From Gemmatimonadota bacterium (lineage in GTDB: Bacteria; Gemmatimonadota; Gemmatimonadetes; Longimicrobiales; Gaopeijiaceae), in NCBI GenBank assembly GCA_029262115.1, contig JAJCZZ010000091.1:1-64000 (forward strand): a DNA stretch of 64,000 bases. The letters run 5' to 3'. This document shows positions 36,644 to 45,984 of this stretch, piece after piece. The notes below the pieces were generated by a model. The model saw only the letters and a list, made by a program, of their open reading frames with translations. It searched no databases and was not told where the DNA came from. Positions within the stretch are counted from its first letter, which is position 1. Each line of letters opens with the position of its first letter. Position numbers and translations under genes: made by a program.

Positions 36644-37354
36644 TCACTCCGTCGCCGACTCCCTCAGAAAACGGACGTCCTCGATCAACTGCGTGACGGC
36701 GGCAGCGTTCATCCCGTTGTAGACCCCGCGAATGCGTCGGTCCCGGTCGATGAGAAAGAAGCTCTCGGTGTGAAGGAAGTTGTCACTGATCGCCATCTCG
36801 CCGCCGACCCCCGGACCTTCACCCAGGTCCTCGTGAGCGAAGTAGGAGTTCTTGCCGAGCTCGTAGATCTGCTCGCGATCGCCCGTGGCCAGGAACCATT
36901 TGGACGAGACCACCTGCATTCGGGCCGCGAACGCCTGGAGCGCGGCCACGCTGTCCGCCTCAGGCGTGACCGAGTGCGAAAGCAGGACGACGTCGTCGAG
37001 GTCTCCGAACGCCTCCTGCAACCGCGCCATGCTCGCCATGGTCGTCGGACAGATCCCCGGACACGAGGTGAAGAAGAAGTTCGCGACGTACAGCTTCCCT
37101 TCGAAATCGTGCTCGGTAAGCGTCGCGCCTCGCTGGTCCACGAGGGCGAACGCCGGAATGGAATGGAAGTCCGCCGGAACCGCGGACGGCAAGGAAAACC
37201 ACCGGGGTGTGAAGCTCACGTCAGCGTAATATGGAAGCCCTACGCGCTCAACACGCGCATCCCCCGTGCTCGAACGAGGCCCGTCACTACACGCGCCCGC
37301 CGACAACCCGGCCAACGTCGCGAACCCTAGTCGTAACAGCCAGGTGGTCCTCAT
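36644..37354 (-). CDS. SCO1/SenC-family copper chaperone lipoprotein
   Basis: This is a 236-residue thioredoxin-fold protein. The lipoprotein leader ends at C22 (LSAGAC). The copper ligands of SCO proteins are present: C97 and C101 in SCPGICP, and H194 in NFLHTESFFLID. SCO proteins deliver Cu to or reduce cysteines at CuA sites, classically cytochrome oxidase, and in some denitrifiers nitrous oxide reductase. It overlaps the YwqK-like gene by 4 bases (ATGA) and lies ~2.6 kb from, and divergent to, nosZ, which carries a CuA site. A role in NosZ maturation is plausible but not proven. Confidence 0.93.
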   Translation of the reverse strand: MRTTWLLRLGFATLAGLSAGACSDGPRSSTGDARVERVGLPYYADVSFTPRWFSLPSAVPADFHSIPAFALVDQRGATLTEHDFEGKLYVANFFFTSCPGICPTTMASMARLQEAFGDLDDVVLLSHSVTPEADSVAALQAFAARMQVVSSKWFLATGDREQIYELGKNSYFAHEDLGEGPGVGGEMAISDNFLHTESFFLIDRDRRIRGVYNGMNAAAVTQLIEDVRFLRESATE

Positions 37355-37962
37355 GAGATCGATCCTCCCGCTTCAAGTCCCGGGCGGGGACCCAGCCCCG
37401 GGTCTTCACCCTCCAACTCATAGCACAAGTCGGCGCGCTTCAGACCGAAGATCCGGCCGTCGCGTGCCTCGTAGTTGGCGTACAGCTTACCGTTCTCCCG
37501 CCAGGCGCGCTGAAGGCCGACCTCCCGTCCAGCCTCCAGTCGGATCTCCTTGAACGGGGCGCCGCTCCGGTACCATTCGCGCTGCACGCCGTCCGCAACA
37601 CCCGCCACGTAGCGCGAGGCAGACCGGGGCGTGCCGTCCTCCCACCAGGTCTCGACGGTGCCGTGGCGCCGGTTGGCGTGGTACGTGGCGCGGTAGCTCC
37701 GTGTGCCGTCGACGTACCAACGCTCCAGACGCCCATCCTTGCGACCGGATCGATACTCCGTACGCTCGGCCACGGTGCCCGGGTCGTGGTAGCGCACAAC
37801 GACACCCGTAAACGGTGCACCTTCGTACGTGACCCACCCGTCTTCAGCCCGGGGGATGGCACTCTCGTAGTCGATGACCGCGGGCCGGGTGACCACCCAT
37901 GTCGTTCCCAGGAGTGCCAGCGCGGTCATCACGACCGCCGGGGGCCGGCTACCGGATCGCAT
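37351..37962 (-). CDS. YwqK/MORN-like repeat protein
   Basis: This is a 203-residue protein with an N-terminal membrane helix (AVVMTALALLGTTWVVT) followed by tandem YwqK-type repeats: VTYEGAPFTGVVVRYHDPGTVAERTEYRSGRKDGRLERWYVDGTR, then KSx-type units HGTVETWWEDGTPRS and DGVQREWYRSGAPFK. These beta-hairpin repeats (about five) are common in secreted or anchored proteins of unknown job. It overlaps the YHYH gene by 14 bases and SCO by 4, so the three are very likely one operon. Confidence 0.85.
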   Translation of the reverse strand: MRSGSRPPAVVMTALALLGTTWVVTRPAVIDYESAIPRAEDGWVTYEGAPFTGVVVRYHDPGTVAERTEYRSGRKDGRLERWYVDGTRSYRATYHANRRHGTVETWWEDGTPRSASRYVAGVADGVQREWYRSGAPFKEIRLEAGREVGLQRAWRENGKLYANYEARDGRIFGLKRADLCYELEGEDPGLGPRPGLEAGGSIS

Positions 37963-38695
37963 TGGGGCTCCCCTGGTAGTCGCCAGGGAACAGAATGTAA
38001 TACTGGTTGAGGTAGCGCTCGTTCTGGATGTGGTAGTGGTATTCACCCGCGGCGTTGTGGGGCGTCGGGCCGGTGTGCCCACCGGACGCATCCAGGTCAT
38101 CCGGGTGAGAACCATCCGCGTCGCGCCGTCCGTATAGGAAGAAGCCGTCGGAGATCACCCCGATGAGTTCTTCGTCATCGCTGGACCACGCAACCGGTTC
38201 CAGATGGTAGTGGTAGCTCTGCGGGCCGGTGTGGGCACCCGAGTAATCCAGAGAGCCGATCGCGTTGTCGAGCGGCACGTTGGGGCCCTCCTGATCATCG
38301 TAGATCATGGCGCCGCTCCGTGCGATCCCGATCGGACCGAGGCCGGTAGCCGTTGTCGAGGCCGCCCTGGCCGGGCTCGCGGGAACCGTCAGCGAATACG
38401 ACCCGCTGAAGTCGTCGATGAACCCGGGAGCGAGACCCTGGGCGACTTGGGGCGCGACGTAGAGCGGGTGGGTCGGTGACCAGTACGGGGAGGTATGGTC
38501 GGGATAGCCGTTGCTTTCGATGATGACGTCCGCGCCGTCCAGCACGACCGTCACGTTGTCGCTGTTGAATTCGGCATAGGCGGCGGACAGTTCACCCGTG
38601 GCCTCCACCTCGGTGACGGCGTCGTCGCAGGCCGTCCCGACGCAGAGGGCGAGAACCACGGGAATCACGGCGATCGAGCGGTATGCGTCGTTCAT
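37949..38695 (-). CDS. YHYH-domain lipoprotein
   Basis: This is a 248-residue lipoprotein with leader IAVIPVVLALCVGTAC. The YHYH domain is complete: an early IESNGYPDHTSPYW, the central motif QSYHYHLEPVAW, GVISDGFFLYGRRDADGSHPDDLDASGGHTGPT, and a second YHYH in GEYHYHIQNERY. Function of the family is unknown; the paired His motifs suggest metal binding. It is first in the YHYH-YwqK-SCO operon, divergent from the nos operon with ~290 bp between. GAGAGG upstream serves as ribosome site. Confidence 0.9.
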   Translation of the reverse strand: MNDAYRSIAVIPVVLALCVGTACDDAVTEVEATGELSAAYAEFNSDNVTVVLDGADVIIESNGYPDHTSPYWSPTHPLYVAPQVAQGLAPGFIDDFSGSYSLTVPASPARAASTTATGLGPIGIARSGAMIYDDQEGPNVPLDNAIGSLDYSGAHTGPQSYHYHLEPVAWSSDDEELIGVISDGFFLYGRRDADGSHPDDLDASGGHTGPTPHNAAGEYHYHIQNERYLNQYYILFPGDYQGSPNAIR

Positions 38696-38900
38696 GATGG
38701 AGCCTCTCGGGTCGGGTCGTTGAGTGGTGAGTCGAGCGGGGATCGGTCGCATGTTCGCCGTCCCTCACGTCCACTCGGACAACCGCATGGCCCAGCTCAT
38801 TCCATCGGGCGCCTTCCCACGCCGGGGCCCAGCCCCCGCACGGGGAAATCTCCCCACCTCCTGCCACGGAAGATCCCCGGCACCCCCCGCCTAACTCGGA

Positions 38901-38981: not shown

Positions 38982-39404
38982 ATGCTGTCACGGACCGGGC
39001 TGTACGCGCTTCGGGCGATGGTGCACCTGGCCGGCGCCGAAAATGGGTCGAACGTGAGCGCAGGGGAGGTCGCGGCCGCGCTCGACATGCCTCCAGACTA
39101 CCTCGCCAAGACCCTGCGAAGCCTCGCGAAGGAGGGGCTTCTCACCTCCTCGAGGGGCGCCGGCGGGGGCTACCGGATGGCACGCGATCCGGCCTCGGTC
39201 ACACTGGCCGAAGTGGTGTCGCCGTTCCAGCCGTCGTTCGCTCCCGGTATCTGCCTTCTCGAAGACCGACCCTGCGATCCCGCTCATCCGTGCCGGGCCC
39301 ACTCCGGATGGTCCGAGTGGACCCGGAACGCTCAGAGGATGCTCGAGCGGACGACTCTGGCCGACCTACTCGGGGGCACGCCCCCCTACTGGATGAACTC
39401 ATGA
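38982..39404 (+). CDS. Rrf2-family Fe-S regulator (NsrR/IscR-like)
   Basis: This is a 140-residue regulator. The winged helix is MLSRTGLYALRAMVHLA...LDMPPDYLAKTLRSLAKEGLL with RGAGGGYRMARDP as wing. Three cysteines, C91, C98 and C104 (CLLEDRPC and CDPAHPC), match the Fe-S cluster ligands of IscR/NsrR-type proteins. The spacing is X6 then X5. First gene of the nos operon, overlapping the cytochrome c gene by 4 bases. By position it likely senses NO or redox state and controls N2O reduction. Confidence 0.92.
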   Translation: MLSRTGLYALRAMVHLAGAENGSNVSAGEVAAALDMPPDYLAKTLRSLAKEGLLTSSRGAGGGYRMARDPASVTLAEVVSPFQPSFAPGICLLEDRPCDPAHPCRAHSGWSEWTRNAQRMLERTTLADLLGGTPPYWMNS

Positions 39405-39913
39405 CGCCGATCACACCGCGACTGATGGCCCTCCTGACCCTCGGTACCCTCGTCACCGCCTGCGGCGGCTCGGACGCGGGCGGGAACACCTCGTCCGCGG
39501 CGGACGATGCGCAGCCCGCCGGCGACGCCGCGCTTTCCTCCGTCGAATTGGAGCAGGGTATCGGTCCTATCCGGGACCTGACCCTTCCGGCGTTGGACCC
39601 GAATCTGGCCGCGACGGGAGAGACCGCGTTCGTCACCAAATGCTCGGCCTGCCACAAGCTGGACGAACGCTACGTCGGACCGCGTCTCGGCACGGTCCTG
39701 GCCCGACGCCGGCCGGAATTCGTCATGAACATGATGCTGAACTCGAACGAGATGGTCGCCAAGCACCCCGGCGTCCGCGACCTACTCGCGCAATTCTACA
39801 CGCCCATGCCGACCCAGGTCACCGACCGTGACGAAGCGCGGGCCATCCTCGAGTACCTGCGGTCCGCGCAGATCGACACGACCGCGGCCGCGCCGGGAGC
39901 GGACGGACCATGA
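39401..39913 (+). CDS. nosC: Monoheme cytochrome c lipoprotein (NosC-like)
   Basis: This is a 170-residue lipoprotein; the leader ends LVTAC (C21). One c-type heme motif CSACH (C81, C84, H85) is followed by a Met-rich stretch with MPTQVTDRDEARAILEYLRS, the likely axial Met region. Its position directly before nosZ and coupling to the Rrf2 gene suggest it delivers electrons to NosZ, as NosC proteins are thought to do in Sec-type (clade II) nos clusters. Gene name assigned by context. Confidence 0.85.
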   Translation: MTPITPRLMALLTLGTLVTACGGSDAGGNTSSAADDAQPAGDAALSSVELEQGIGPIRDLTLPALDPNLAATGETAFVTKCSACHKLDERYVGPRLGTVLARRRPEFVMNMMLNSNEMVAKHPGVRDLLAQFYTPMPTQVTDRDEARAILEYLRSAQIDTTAAAPGADGP

Positions 39914-39959
39914 CGCGTCCCCGCTCTCCCAGTGCACCCTCACAAAGGAGGATCGTGCG

Positions 39960-41936
39960 ATGAGATCGATAGTGAGCAGTTCCTACCGGACAATGGGCGT
40001 CGCCCTCGTTCTGGTTCCGCTAGCCACGTACGGCTGTGGCGGAGGAGGATCGGCTGAAGCCGGGGCCATGGCCGACGCGGCCCAGGCGGTCTACGTGGCG
40101 CCCGGCGAGTACGACGAGTTCTACGCCTTCATGTCCGGTGGCTTCAGCGGAAATCTCACGGTCATGGGCCTTCCGTCGGGGCGGCTCCTGCGTACCGTGC
40201 CGGTCTTCAGCCAGTACCCGGAGAACGGATGGGGATATTCCGAGGAAACCACGGCCATGCTCGAGACCTCCCACGGCTTCATCCCCTGGGACGACTCCCA
40301 CCATCCCGAGCTGTCCATGACCGACGGGGTTCCCGACGGTCGCTGGATCTTCATCAACGGGAACAACACGCCGCGGGTGGCCCGGATCGACCTGACCACG
40401 TTCGAGACCACGGAGATCATCGAGGTTCCGAACTCGGCGGGAAACCACGGATCGCCGTTCATCACACCGAATTCGGATTACCTGGTGGCGACCACGCGGT
40501 TCAGCGTACCGGTCCCGAACCGTGACATGCCCATCGATGAATACCGCGGCAATTTCAAGGGGATGTTGAGCTTCATCCGGGCAGGAGAGCCGGGCAACAT
40601 GGACGTGGCGTTCCAGATCCTCGTGCCGGGCTACAACTACGACCTGGCGCACGCAGGCAAGGGTCCGTCCGACGGGTGGATGTTCTTCACGTCGTACAAC
40701 TCCGAGGAGGAGCACACGCTCCTCGAGATCAACGCGTCGCGTAAGGACAAGGACTTCGTAGCCGCGGTGAACTGGCGTCGGGCGGAATCCTGCGTGGCGG
40801 AAGGCGTGGGACGAGCCATGCCGGCGGATTACCGGCACAACGTCATGGGCGAGGACCACATCGCCCGCTCGAACCGGCGCACGAGCGTCTGGGTCATCGA
40901 GCCGACCGACTGTGCGGATATGATCTACTTCCTGCCGACGCCCAAGTCACCGCACGGGGTGGACGTCGACCCGACGGGTGAGTACATCGCGGCCGGCGGG
41001 AAGCTGGCAACCGTGATTCCCGTCCACTCGTTCCGGAAGATGCTGGCCGCCATCGAGGCGGAGGACTACGAGACCGTCATCGACGGCATTCCCGTGCTCA
41101 CCTACGAGTCGGTCATCGCCGGCGAAGTGGAGAACGCGGGCCTCGGCCCCCTCCACACCGAGTTCGATGGTCGGGGCTTCGCGTACACGACGGCCTTCAT
41201 CTCCTCGGAAATCGTGAAGTGGGAGATCGGAACGTGGCAGGTGGTGGACCGCATTCCGGTCTACTACTCGGTGGGTCACCTGATGATTCCCGGCGGAGAC
41301 TCACGCGAGCCGGCCGGAAAGTACCTGGTGGCGCTGAACAAGATCACCAAGGACCGGTACCTGCCGACCGGGCCGGAGCTCGCGCACGCCGCGCAGCTCA
41401 TCGACATCAGCGGCGACAAAATGCGCCTTCTGCTGGACTTTCCCACGCAGGGTGAGCCCCACTACGCGCAGGCCATCGCAGCTGAGATGCTGATGGACAA
41501 GCAGGTGCAGTTCTTTTCGCTCAACGAGAACACGAATCCGAACGCGGCCCTGTCCGAAGCCGACGCCCGCGTGGAGCGGCGCGGCAACGAGGTTCATGTC
41601 TTCATGACTGCCATCCGCAGTCACTTCACGCCCGACAACATCGAGGGCGTGCACGTGGGCGACGAGGTCTACTTCCACGTCACCAACCTCGAACAGGATT
41701 GGGACGTGCCTCACGGCTTCGCCTCGTTCGGCGCGAATGCGGCTGAACTGCTGGTCATGCCGGGACAGACCCGCACGCTGAAGTGGATTCCAAAGCGCGC
41801 GGGAATCTACCCATTCTACTGCACGGACTTCTGTTCGGCGCTGCACCAGGAGATGCAGGGTTACCTGCGCGTGTCGGCGGCGGGTGCCAACACACCGCTT
41901 CGCTGGGGCACCGGCGGTGAGTGGAAAACGAACTGA
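39960..41936 (+). CDS. nosZ: Nitrous oxide reductase, Sec-type (clade II-like)
   Basis: NosZ (658 residues) reduces N2O to N2 in the periplasm using CuA and CuZ centres. The leader MRSIVSSSYRTMGVALVLVPLATYGC lacks a twin-Arg motif, so export is by Sec, the mark of clade II; C26 could be lipidated. The seven-bladed propeller has typical SYNSEEEHTLLE and HGSPFITPNSDY segments. The C-terminal cupredoxin domain carries CuA ligands C621, C625, H629 and M632 in CTDFCSALHQEM. A strong AAAGGAGG ribosome site lies 9 bases before the ATG. Confidence 0.97.
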   Translation: MRSIVSSSYRTMGVALVLVPLATYGCGGGGSAEAGAMADAAQAVYVAPGEYDEFYAFMSGGFSGNLTVMGLPSGRLLRTVPVFSQYPENGWGYSEETTAMLETSHGFIPWDDSHHPELSMTDGVPDGRWIFINGNNTPRVARIDLTTFETTEIIEVPNSAGNHGSPFITPNSDYLVATTRFSVPVPNRDMPIDEYRGNFKGMLSFIRAGEPGNMDVAFQILVPGYNYDLAHAGKGPSDGWMFFTSYNSEEEHTLLEINASRKDKDFVAAVNWRRAESCVAEGVGRAMPADYRHNVMGEDHIARSNRRTSVWVIEPTDCADMIYFLPTPKSPHGVDVDPTGEYIAAGGKLATVIPVHSFRKMLAAIEAEDYETVIDGIPVLTYESVIAGEVENAGLGPLHTEFDGRGFAYTTAFISSEIVKWEIGTWQVVDRIPVYYSVGHLMIPGGDSREPAGKYLVALNKITKDRYLPTGPELAHAAQLIDISGDKMRLLLDFPTQGEPHYAQAIAAEMLMDKQVQFFSLNENTNPNAALSEADARVERRGNEVHVFMTAIRSHFTPDNIEGVHVGDEVYFHVTNLEQDWDVPHGFASFGANAAELLVMPGQTRTLKWIPKRAGIYPFYCTDFCSALHQEMQGYLRVSAAGANTPLRWGTGGEWKTN

Positions 41937-42006: not shown

Positions 42007-43254
42007 ATGATGACCAAGGCGAGCCGGTGGCTGTTGGCCGCGGCCGCACTGGCGCTGGCGTTGACCTACGTCCTGCCGCTGTGGACGATCGATCTGGAGG
42101 CGCCGCAGTACCCGGAGGGCCTGGGCATGGTGATACGGATCGACGCGATCGAAGGTCAGGAGCCGCATCACCTGGGGAATATCAACAACCTGAATCACTA
42201 CATCGGGATGAAGCGCATCGTCCCCGAGTCGATTCCCGAGTTGAAGATCATGCCCGGCGTGGTGGGCCTGCTCATTCTGCTGGGGCTCGGAACGGCGGTG
42301 CTGGGGCGGCGCCGGCTCCTGTACGCCTGGACCGCGCTGTTCCTGCTGACGTCCGTCGTCGGCCTGGCCGACTTCTACAAGTGGGAGTACGACTACGGGC
42401 ACGACCTCGACGACGAGAACGCCATCATCAAGATCCCCGGGATGAGCTATCAGCCGCCACTCATCGGGTCGAAGCAGATCCTGAACTTCCGGGCGCACTC
42501 CTGGCCCGGTTCAGGGGGATGGATCGCGATTGCCGTGGGGGCCCTCGCGAGTGGTCTGACCGTGTACGAGTTCCGTCGGCGGCAAGAAGACGGTGGGGGC
42601 GACCGGGACGGGCTGAACAGTAAGGGGGGGGACCCGGACGGACGGAGTAGCCCCACACTGGTAGACCGTGCCGACGGCTCGGTTGGCTCGCCGCCCCGGG
42701 CGGTCGCGATCATCGCGACGGTCGGAGCTCTCGCCACGAACGCCGCCGCGTGTTCGCCACCGGGGCCGAGAGCGCTGGTAGCGGGGGTCGATGCGTGCGA
42801 GAGCTGTCTGATGCCGGTGGCGAACGACGGCCACGGCGCGGAAGTCGTGACGGAGACCGGTCGGATTCTGACCTTCGACTCCATCGAGTGCCTGGTCGGG
42901 TGGCTCCAGCGCGAGGGCGACGGGACGCCCGTCCGCTCGGCGTGGGTCACCGACCTGGAGGAGCCGGGCAGCTGGATCGTGGCCGACGAAGCGTATTACC
43001 TGGGCGGCGCGACGCTGCCTTCCCCGATGGGGCTCGGCCTCCACGCTTTCGCCCGTGAGGAGGACCGCGACCGCGCCAGGAGTGAGGTGGGAGGCAGCGC
43101 CCTCGACTGGATGGGTGTGAAGGGAGCGGTCGCGGAAGCATGGCCGGACGGTCGACCGCGCAGGGGACATGGCGGACACAGCGAGACGCTGGGGGCGCGA
43201 CGTGGGACGGACCACCCAGGCTCAGGCGGATCGTCGATCGCACCGGTGTCATGA
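42007..43254 (+). CDS. NosB-like membrane protein fused to NosL copper chaperone
   Basis: This is a single 415-residue frame. Residues 1-190 form a four-helix membrane protein like the NosB found after clade II nosZ (helices ~8-25, 84-100, 104-122, 171-188). A polar linker (190-231) leads to a fifth helix with an internal lipobox-like ALATNAAAC, then a NosL domain with Cu-ligand-like CESCLM (C264, C267, M269) and GRILTFDSIECLVGWL. No ATG, GTG or TTG precedes the NosL leader in frame, supporting fusion. A run of eight G at about 42624 in the linker needs checking. It overlaps nosD by 4 bases; the C-terminal ~45 residues are low-complexity. Confidence 0.8.
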   Translation: MMTKASRWLLAAAALALALTYVLPLWTIDLEAPQYPEGLGMVIRIDAIEGQEPHHLGNINNLNHYIGMKRIVPESIPELKIMPGVVGLLILLGLGTAVLGRRRLLYAWTALFLLTSVVGLADFYKWEYDYGHDLDDENAIIKIPGMSYQPPLIGSKQILNFRAHSWPGSGGWIAIAVGALASGLTVYEFRRRQEDGGGDRDGLNSKGGDPDGRSSPTLVDRADGSVGSPPRAVAIIATVGALATNAAACSPPGPRALVAGVDACESCLMPVANDGHGAEVVTETGRILTFDSIECLVGWLQREGDGTPVRSAWVTDLEEPGSWIVADEAYYLGGATLPSPMGLGLHAFAREEDRDRARSEVGGSALDWMGVKGAVAEAWPDGRPRRGHGGHSETLGARRGTDHPGSGGSSIAPVS

Positions 43255-44486
43255 TCGGCACCCTGACGGCCGTCCTGACGGTCGCCGCGGTACAGGTGGG
43301 GGCGGCACAGGCGAATGTGGTACCCGGCGGCCCGCAAGGCGCCATCGCCCGGGCCGTCGCGGCCGCCCGGCCGCACGACACCGTACGGGTGGGCCCGGGC
43401 GTCTATGCTGAGCCCACCGTCGTCATCGACCGACCGCTCGTGCTGGTGGGGCTGCCCGGAGCGATTCTCGACGGACGGGGGGAGCGCGGCCTCGTCCGCA
43501 TCGAGTCCGACTCGGTAACCGTGCGGGGCTTCACCTTCCGGGATACGGGTGTGTCGTTCACGGAGGACCGGGCCGCCGTCCATGTCGAGAAGGCTGGCTT
43601 CTGCCATGTGGCGGGGAACCACTTCGACGACACGTTCTTCGGCGTATATCTCGCGGGCGCCAGCGACTGCACGATCCGTGACAACACGTTCCAGGCGGTG
43701 GCCGACCGCGAGACCCGGGCCGGCAACGGCATCCACCTCTGGTACTCCGTGCGGGTCACGATCGAAGACAACGTGATCCGCGGTCACCGCGACGGGATCT
43801 ACTTCGAGTTCGTCGAAGACAGCCGGGTGTCGGACAACGTCAGCGAGCGCAACCTGCGCTACGGGCTCCACTTCATGTTCTCCGACGGCTGCACCTACGT
43901 GGGCAATCGCTTCGTGGAGAACGGCGCTGGCGTGGCGGTAATGTACACCGAGCGCGTCGTCATGGAGCGGAACACCTTCGAGCGGAATCGGGGCACGGCC
44001 GCATTCGGACTGCTGCTCAAGGACATCACCGACAGCCGCATCGAGGGGAACCACTTCGTGGGCAACAGCGTGGCACTCCACGCGGAGGGCGTGCGGCGGA
44101 TCGAGGTCACACGCAACCGCTTCCACGACAACGGCTGGGCCATTCAGGTCATGGCGAACGCGGAAGAGGCCGACTTCGTGGGCAACGACTTCGCGGGCAA
44201 CTCGTTCGACGTGTCCACGAACAGCCGCAGGACCGCCACCACCTTCACGTCAAACTACTGGGACCGGTACCGCGGGTACGACCTGGACCGGGACGGCGTG
44301 GGCGACGTGCCGTTCCATCCTGTACGCCTCTTCTCGTTGGTCGTCCAGCGGAATCCGCCGGCAATGGTGCTCATGCGTAGCTTCCTGGTCACGCTTCTCG
44401 ACCTGGCCGAGCAGCTCTTCCCGGTGCTCACGCCCGAGAACCTGGTGGACCCGTCCCCGGCCATGACCTCCCGGGTGGCGCCATGA
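43251..44486 (+). CDS. nosD: NosD, periplasmic copper-site maturation protein
   Basis: NosD (411 residues) has a signal peptide (MIGTLTAVLTVAAVQVGAAQA) and a right-handed beta-helix of CASH repeats: VTVRGFTFRDTG, DCTIRDNTFQAV, RVTIEDNVIRGHRDGIYFEF, RRIEVTRNRFHDNGWAIQVM. The ending SNYWDRYRGYDLDRDGVGDVPFHPV is typical of NosD. It works with NosF and NosY in building the CuZ centre of NosZ, probably handling sulfur. ATGA overlaps link it to the NosL fusion upstream and nosF downstream. The upstream in-frame extension to 43140 lacks a leader and was rejected. Confidence 0.95.
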   Translation: MIGTLTAVLTVAAVQVGAAQANVVPGGPQGAIARAVAAARPHDTVRVGPGVYAEPTVVIDRPLVLVGLPGAILDGRGERGLVRIESDSVTVRGFTFRDTGVSFTEDRAAVHVEKAGFCHVAGNHFDDTFFGVYLAGASDCTIRDNTFQAVADRETRAGNGIHLWYSVRVTIEDNVIRGHRDGIYFEFVEDSRVSDNVSERNLRYGLHFMFSDGCTYVGNRFVENGAGVAVMYTERVVMERNTFERNRGTAAFGLLLKDITDSRIEGNHFVGNSVALHAEGVRRIEVTRNRFHDNGWAIQVMANAEEADFVGNDFAGNSFDVSTNSRRTATTFTSNYWDRYRGYDLDRDGVGDVPFHPVRLFSLVVQRNPPAMVLMRSFLVTLLDLAEQLFPVLTPENLVDPSPAMTSRVAP

Positions 44487-45211
44487 ACGCCGCCGTGCGG
44501 TTCGAGAACGTCAGGAAGCGGTACGGGCCGCTTGAGGTTCTTCGGGGCATCGACCTGGCCCTCCGCGCCGGCCGCGTGACGGCGGTGCTCGGCCCGAACG
44601 GAGCGGGCAAGACGACGCTCCTCAAGATCCTCCTCGGGCTGGTCCGACCGGACGGAGGACAGGTGTATCTGGGAGCGCGGGCGGTGGGTACGGGTGCATC
44701 CTACCGGCGGGATATCACCTACATGCCCCAGCTCCCGCACTTCCCGAGCAACCTGAGCGCGCGGGAACTCGTCTCAATGCTGTCGGATCTCAGGGACTTC
44801 GACGGGCAGCCCGACACCGAGTTGTTCGAACGGTTCGGCCTGGCAGACCAAATGGACACGCCGTTCCGTTCGCTGTCCGGCGGCACCCGCCAGAAGGTGA
44901 ACGCCGCCCTGGCCTTCCGCTTCCCTGCTCCCGTGCGGGTGCTCGACGAGCCGACTGCCGGGCTCGACCCGGTGGCGGCGCGGATCTTCAAAGCGAGGAT
45001 TCTGCGCGAGCGTGGGGGGGGCCGCACCGTGATCCTGACCTCACACGACCTCGGGCAGGTGGAAGCCCTGGCCGACGACGTCGTGTTTCTGCTCGAGGGG
45101 CGCGTGCACTACGCCGGACCGCAGGCCGGCCTGCTGGAGGCGACAGGAGAGGATGACCTCGAAGGAGCCGTAGCCTCCCTGGCCGGGGAGGAGACATGGG
45201 TGACATGCTGA
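44483..45211 (+). CDS. nosF: NosF ABC-transporter ATPase
   Basis: NosF (242 residues) is the ATPase of the NosDFY complex. Walker A is GPNGAGKTT (residues 37-45), signature FRSLSGGTRQK, Walker B VLDEPTAGLDP, and the switch His in LTSHDLGQVEALAD. N-terminal FENVRKRYGPLEVLRGIDLAL is standard. It overlaps nosD by 4 bases and nosY by 16. All family hallmarks are intact. Confidence 0.95.
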   Translation: MNAAVRFENVRKRYGPLEVLRGIDLALRAGRVTAVLGPNGAGKTTLLKILLGLVRPDGGQVYLGARAVGTGASYRRDITYMPQLPHFPSNLSARELVSMLSDLRDFDGQPDTELFERFGLADQMDTPFRSLSGGTRQKVNAALAFRFPAPVRVLDEPTAGLDPVAARIFKARILRERGGGRTVILTSHDLGQVEALADDVVFLLEGRVHYAGPQAGLLEATGEDDLEGAVASLAGEETWVTC

Positions 45212-45984
45212 AGGTCCTGCGCTACGAACTGAGGAGCGTCGTGCGGGGTCGCACGGTCCTCGGACTCGGGCTCTTCTTCGCCCTGGCCGCAACGGGACTC
45301 GTACAACTCGCCGGGAGTGTGGCGCGAGCGCTTCCCAGCCTGGCCAATCTGGTCCTCTTGGCCGTCCCACTGGTCAGCCTGGTGTTCGGGACGGTGGCGG
45401 TCTACGAAGGACGCGACTTCACGGAGCTGGTAGTGTCGCACCCGGTGGGGCGACGGCCGTTCTTCGCCGGGACCTGGTTGGGCCGTACGCTCCCACTTGC
45501 GACGGCCTTCGTGGTGGGCGTCAGCGTGCCGCTCGCCCTGGCCGGCGTGCCCGACGGTTCGGTACGCCCCCTGCTGCTCCTGCTCGCCATCGGTGTCCTG
45601 CTGGTCGGGGTCTTCACCGCGCTCGCGTTCCTTGTGGCCTTCTACGTCCGGGACGCCGCCCGTGGGCTCGGCGCCGCCCTCCTTCTGTGGCTCGCGATGA
45701 CCGTGCTGTACGACGGCGCTATTCTCATGGCGGTCGGGGTGTTTGCACAGTATCCGCTGGAAGAACCGCTCCTGTGGGCCATGTTCTTCAACCCGGTCGA
45801 TCTGGCGCGGGTGACCGTGCTCCTCTCGCTGGACGCGTCGGCCATGCTCGGCTACACCGGCGCGGTCTTCCACCGCTTCTTCGGCAGCGGACTCGGCATC
45901 GTGGCCGCGGCGGTCAGCCTGGCCGTGTGGGTCGTGGTGCCGTTGGTGCTGGCGGGCCGCCGGTTCGAACGAATGGATCTGTAG
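45196..45984 (+). CDS. nosY: NosY ABC-transporter permease
   Basis: NosY (262 residues) is the membrane permease for NosF. Six hydrophobic segments are seen, beginning VLGLGLFFALAATGLVQLAG and ending LGIVAAAVSLAVWVVVPLVLAG. The conserved VVSHPVGRRPFFAGTWLGR loop lies between helices two and three. The ATG at 45196 has a GGGGAGGA ribosome site; a second ATG follows three codons later. Last gene of the nos operon; its stop abuts the convergent symporter gene with no intervening base. Confidence 0.93.
   Translation: MGDMLKVLRYELRSVVRGRTVLGLGLFFALAATGLVQLAGSVARALPSLANLVLLAVPLVSLVFGTVAVYEGRDFTELVVSHPVGRRPFFAGTWLGRTLPLATAFVVGVSVPLALAGVPDGSVRPLLLLLAIGVLLVGVFTALAFLVAFYVRDAARGLGAALLLWLAMTVLYDGAILMAVGVFAQYPLEEPLLWAMFFNPVDLARVTVLLSLDASAMLGYTGAVFHRFFGSGLGIVAAAVSLAVWVVVPLVLAGRRFERMDL

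Follow-up and report, generated by a model that had tools for sequence, protein, structure and literature searches.

The window, a stretch of 64,000 nucleotides from a Gemmatimonadota genome, carries a nos cluster on its forward strand with the gene order nosZ, nosBL, nosD, nosF and nosY. The first gene (39828–41936; ORF bounds, start approximate) encodes a clade II, Sec-dependent N2O reductase and matches TIGR04246 with 925 bits against a cut-off of 625. nosD (43251–44486) matches TIGR04247 with 426 bits. Its longest ORF begins at ATG 43140 and overlaps nosBL by 115 bases (43140–43254). The start is likely ATG 43251, which forms an ATGA overlap with the nosBL stop codon, because the translation from this position opens directly with a signal-peptide-like stretch. 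nosF (44483–45211) codes for an ABC transporter ATPase and nosY (45196–45984) for an ABC-2 type permease, assigned from PF00005 and PF12679, respectively, and from their place in the cluster. Upstream of nosZ and on the same strand are an Rrf2-family regulator (38982–39404, PF02082) and a cytochrome c (39290–39913, PF00034; ORF bounds, start approximate). Near the cluster, on the reverse strand at 36644–38752, an SCO1-like copper protein, a MORN-repeat-like protein and a YHYH-domain protein stand in a row.

The frame at 42007–43254 is a NosB-NosL fusion gene (NosB-L) that sits between clade II nosZ and nosD in this operon. NosB and NosL are helper proteins needed for the maturation of N2O reductase, which breaks down the greenhouse gas N2O. 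The first-pass annotation had read both proteins from one frame, and this is confirmed: the frame is stop-free over 415 amino acids, with NosB homology and motifs in its first part and PF05573 in its second, and relatives share the fusion. The NosB part covers residues 1–195 (42007–42591). A polar linker, predicted to be cytoplasmic, follows at residues 196–230 (42592–42696) and contains a run of eight G at 42624–42631. The fifth helix, residues 231–248 (42697–42750), is a signal-peptide-like hydrophobic region seen both in the structure model and in hydropathy. It runs directly into the lipobox cysteine C249 (42751–42753; NAAA–C), the predicted site of Lgt and LspA, which is conserved among fusions. 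The NosL copper-chaperone domain occupies residues 262–372 (42790–43122) and includes the CESCLM motif at residues 264–269. The AlphaFold model of the whole chain has a mean pLDDT of 86 and places long helices at residues 4–21, 78–99, 102–132, 169–199 and 231–248, so that the lipobox-bearing fifth helix of the earlier description is found as proposed. Helix positions are those of the model; a simple hydropathy scan missed helix 3 owing to its step rule. The linker is disordered in the model, and its residues 212–229 have pLDDT values below 50.

The NosB part is recognized by homology, by structure models and by two motifs, LNHYIGM at residues 62–68 and YGH at residues 130–132 (YGHD here, YGHN in Flavobacterium). 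NosB homologues align across residues 1–195. The searches of Pfam and NCBIfam models gave no convincing family match for this half, and a sequence search found no homologue with a known structure. The separate NosB proteins of clade II nos clusters in Wolinella and Gemmatimonas share with it the sequence, the motifs, the four helices and the gene position, while the NosB of the window adds a C-terminal linker, the fifth helix and NosL. In Wolinella, NosB is reported to be essential for clade II N2O respiration. The predicted fold consists of four transmembrane helices and a periplasmic β/helix insert, and the model of NosB alone (42007–42606) is very confident, with a pLDDT of 96. The best solved Foldseek matches to this model are TARP and claudin proteins, with E about 1e-4, Z about 10 and rmsd about 4 over 140–160 aligned residues, while the unrelated LRRC8, Rogdi and pannexin reach Z of 8.8–9.8 with worse rmsd. 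The order of elements in the model (TM1, strands and a helix, TM2, TM3, strands, TM4) fits a claudin-like arrangement. The modeled NosB thus appears to resemble the claudin/TARP arrangement, a lead only, as the likeness is not clearly separated from that to unrelated four-helix proteins. A claudin link of NosB was also sought in the literature, with no useful result.

The NosL half matches PF05573 with 42–45 bits against a curated cut-off of 24. Its CESCLM motif is of the clade II type, CxxCxM, and together with a second conserved methionine, M341, it is invariant in 27 copper-type fusions. The predicted model of this half superimposes on the NosL structure 7og7 with a Z of 16.6 and an rmsd of 2.3 over 125 aligned residues. 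NosL serves the CuZ site as a Cu(I) chaperone, and its N-terminal cysteine is believed to anchor it in the membrane; its conserved residues are the CXM motif with a role in copper (CXXCXM in clade II) and one further methionine (PMC6530538). The domain, the fold, the clade II CxxCxM, the second methionine and the lipobox cysteine are all common to the window and known NosL (PF05573; 7og7, 7osf; PMC6530538). The difference from ordinary NosL is that NosB precedes it in the same chain. A PF05573 profile search of the whole 5.45 Mb assembly found no second NosL above the Pfam cut-off, and the fused copy is the only NosL found. A weak match on another contig (C53, L002), considered as a second NosL, does not resemble NosL and was rejected.

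The eight-G run is the sole homopolymer of six or more in the nosBL frame, and it falls in the linker of a gene from a draft assembly of 110 contigs. A true run of seven or nine G would make nosB and nosL separate genes, with NosB ending at 218 or 214 amino acids. We consider such an assembly artefact extremely improbable and reject it. In other assemblies, seven near relatives (L003, L004, L005, L033, L035, L036 and L037) have the same fusion, with identities of 56–62% across the searches and 56–61% in a single alignment, which also answers the earlier suggestion to look for it in Gemmatimonadota homologues. In addition, neither altered run would leave NosL an ordinary start (ATG, GTG or TTG) ahead of its signal region: with seven G, starts are absent from frame 2 between 42560 and the run, and with nine G the sole candidate, GTG 42593, reaches TGA after seven codons. 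A related question is whether NosL is additionally made alone, from an internal start such as GTG 42562 or a non-standard codon. GTG 42562 is in frame, but it lies inside helix 4 and lacks a clear ribosome-binding site, and between it and the lipobox cysteine the present frame contains no further ATG, GTG or TTG. The claim that NosL has no separate start holds to this extent, and internal initiation is very unlikely.

The fusion is real and its kind is already known; the window adds one member. The first-pass annotation implied that such a gene was new, and this does not stand. Passages of PMC9697520 describe a NosB of Dyadobacter fermentans that is joined to NosL (with reference to van Spanning 2011 and Hein 2017), infer NosB-L for three species of Flavobacterium (F. 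azooxidireducens, F. denitrificans and F. crocinum), and give LNHYIGM and YGH as NosB motifs. These genes and the window have in common NosB followed by NosL in one gene, placement in a clade II cluster with nosZ on one side and nosD on the other, and both motifs. They differ in phylum, and the passages on NosB-L are without discussion of the internal lipobox and its meaning. The parts worth following are this lipobox and a clade of fusions that lacks copper ligands.

The distribution of the fusion was surveyed with the query protein (P0001). The search covered 98 genomes of relatives, 395 of the phylum, of which 131 gave a match, and a set of 84,980 species genomes, with further regions fetched. 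Loci were classed by whether NosB and NosL share one stop-free frame. The 180 distinct NosB comprise 35 fused to NosL and 103 with NosL immediately downstream in a frame of its own; a further 37 are without a recognized NosL nearby, and contig ends truncate the remaining 5. Of the 138 distinct loci at which the neighbor of nosB could be resolved, 35 are thus fused, a count that comes from non-random sampling and is hence no frequency. Recurrence of one architecture at 35 distinct loci goes far beyond chance. By record title, the fusions come from at least four phyla, namely Gemmatimonadota, Bacteroidota, Bdellovibrionota (Oligoflexia) and Krumholzibacteriota. On the NosB tree of 138 rows, the backbone of which has weak support, the fused loci are scattered and require a minimum of 18 state changes, at least four of them forced by well-supported branches. 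The tree of 70 rows under a mixture model also gives a minimum of 18, with six forced. A single origin, with all fused NosB as one clade, is rejected (AU p 9e-54, 70 rows). By these trees, fusion or fission has evidently occurred repeatedly, and the direction could be either way. The repeated joining of NosB to NosL, a copper chaperone, is a hint that NosB cooperates in supplying NosZ with copper. Two Neomarinimicrobiota loci (L052 and L068) have separate nosB and nosL, and their NosB groups, with weak support, within the fused Gemmatimonadota clade of the window, so a fission after transfer is possible there.

The lipobox cysteine is found in all 35 fusions with G, A or S at position −1 each time, and in 102 of 103 separate NosL, although the finder chose the best cysteine per protein, which biases the result towards G, A or S at −1. 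All 27 copper-type fusions also share C249, one of only a handful of positions in the NosL half that do not vary among them. Mean identity in the fused clade of the window is 72% for NosB, 55% for NosL, 22% for the hydrophobic region and 16% for the linker, and the cysteine is invariant. Some of this conservation could simply be inherited, where fusions are recent and independent. The lipobox of the window itself, NAAAC, is weak, with alanine at −3; the small residue at −1 and the cysteine are present. The linker is net acidic (−1), and an arginine stands directly ahead of the hydrophobic stretch. Lgt and LspA are both present in the genome.

We propose, and think it rather likely, that nosBL encodes a one-chain precursor whose internal lipobox is lipidated by Lgt and cut by LspA to yield NosB and the lipoprotein NosL. 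This reading is favored because a purely tethered domain would need no lipobox, yet the cysteine is conserved, and both enzymes are encoded in the genome. The four NosB helices of the single polypeptide would enter the membrane so that both termini of this part face the cytoplasm, the linker would stay inside, and the fifth helix would act as an internal lipoprotein signal peptide that takes the NosL domain to the periplasm. The periplasmic location, claimed from the start, is judged right on this predicted topology. Lgt would then lipidate C249 and LspA would cut between A248 and C249. The products would be a normal membrane-anchored NosL and a NosB with a spare C-terminal helix; NosL would pass Cu(I) to NosZ for the CuZ site, in its chaperone role from the literature, while NosB would act at the membrane. 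The benefit of fusion may be equal amounts and co-localization of the two proteins. FbcH of Bradyrhizobium, a cytochrome b-c1 precursor, also joins a polytopic membrane protein and an exported domain in one chain that is cut at an internal signal sequence. The proposed nosBL precursor would work like FbcH, which is cut by signal peptidase I and is unrelated to NosB and NosL. Nothing useful came from literature searches on the FbcH precedent or on polytopic proteins with an internal lipobox.

Alternatively, the fusion may stay whole. NosL, tethered to NosB by the fifth helix, would then be a chaperone arm anchored in the membrane and would hand over copper next to NosB, with the cysteine perhaps lipidated and uncut. 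The fused frame, the topology and the flexible linker are consistent with this, and in the passages on NosB-L the authors of PMC9697520 treat the fusion as one multidomain protein with both functions. However, a tether does not need a lipobox, yet the cysteine and the small −1 residue are kept in 35 of 35 fusions amid freely drifting sequence, and fusions without copper ligands still retain it. We therefore regard a permanently tethered NosL as possible and rather unlikely. For the cleaved precursor, the conserved internal lipobox predicts two mature proteins, so the detection of a single protein by immunoblot, suggested in the first-pass annotation, may fail. The lipobox allows a sharp and cheap test: two proteins or one.

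Eight fusions (L008, L009, L013, L015, L017, L156, L175 and L178) group together as a single clade, in the NosB tree and in the NosL tree alike. Their NosL part has neither CxxCxM (the residues are, for example, YCGGT or YCHVP) nor the second methionine in the SPMG stretch, and the members scanned score under the Pfam cut-off. All of them retain the lipobox. A canonical NosL lies directly downstream in all six ligand-less fusions with enough flanking DNA, versus none of 25 copper-type fusions (Fisher p 1.4e-6, in which the relatedness of the rows overstates independence). From the sequences, this looks like a division of labor, with the fused NosL as a partner domain and the separate NosL as the chaperone. 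Limited literature searches found no description of a ligand-less fused NosL beside a canonical one. With this clade it could become possible to tell a partner role apart from copper binding. Taken together, we put forward, with confidence evenly divided for and against, that NosB-NosL fusions would be cut mid-chain by way of Lgt and then LspA, releasing a polytopic protein and a lipoprotein, that they arose repeatedly, and that the fused NosL of one clade then gave up copper binding to serve as a non-copper partner domain, next to a second NosL that still works.

Five minimal fusions (L007, L127, L161, L184 and L193) have linkers of only 18–23 amino acids, and basic residues and the NosL signal stretch come almost directly after NosB helix 4. 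In these proteins the basic tail of NosB seems to serve also as the n-region of the signal peptide.
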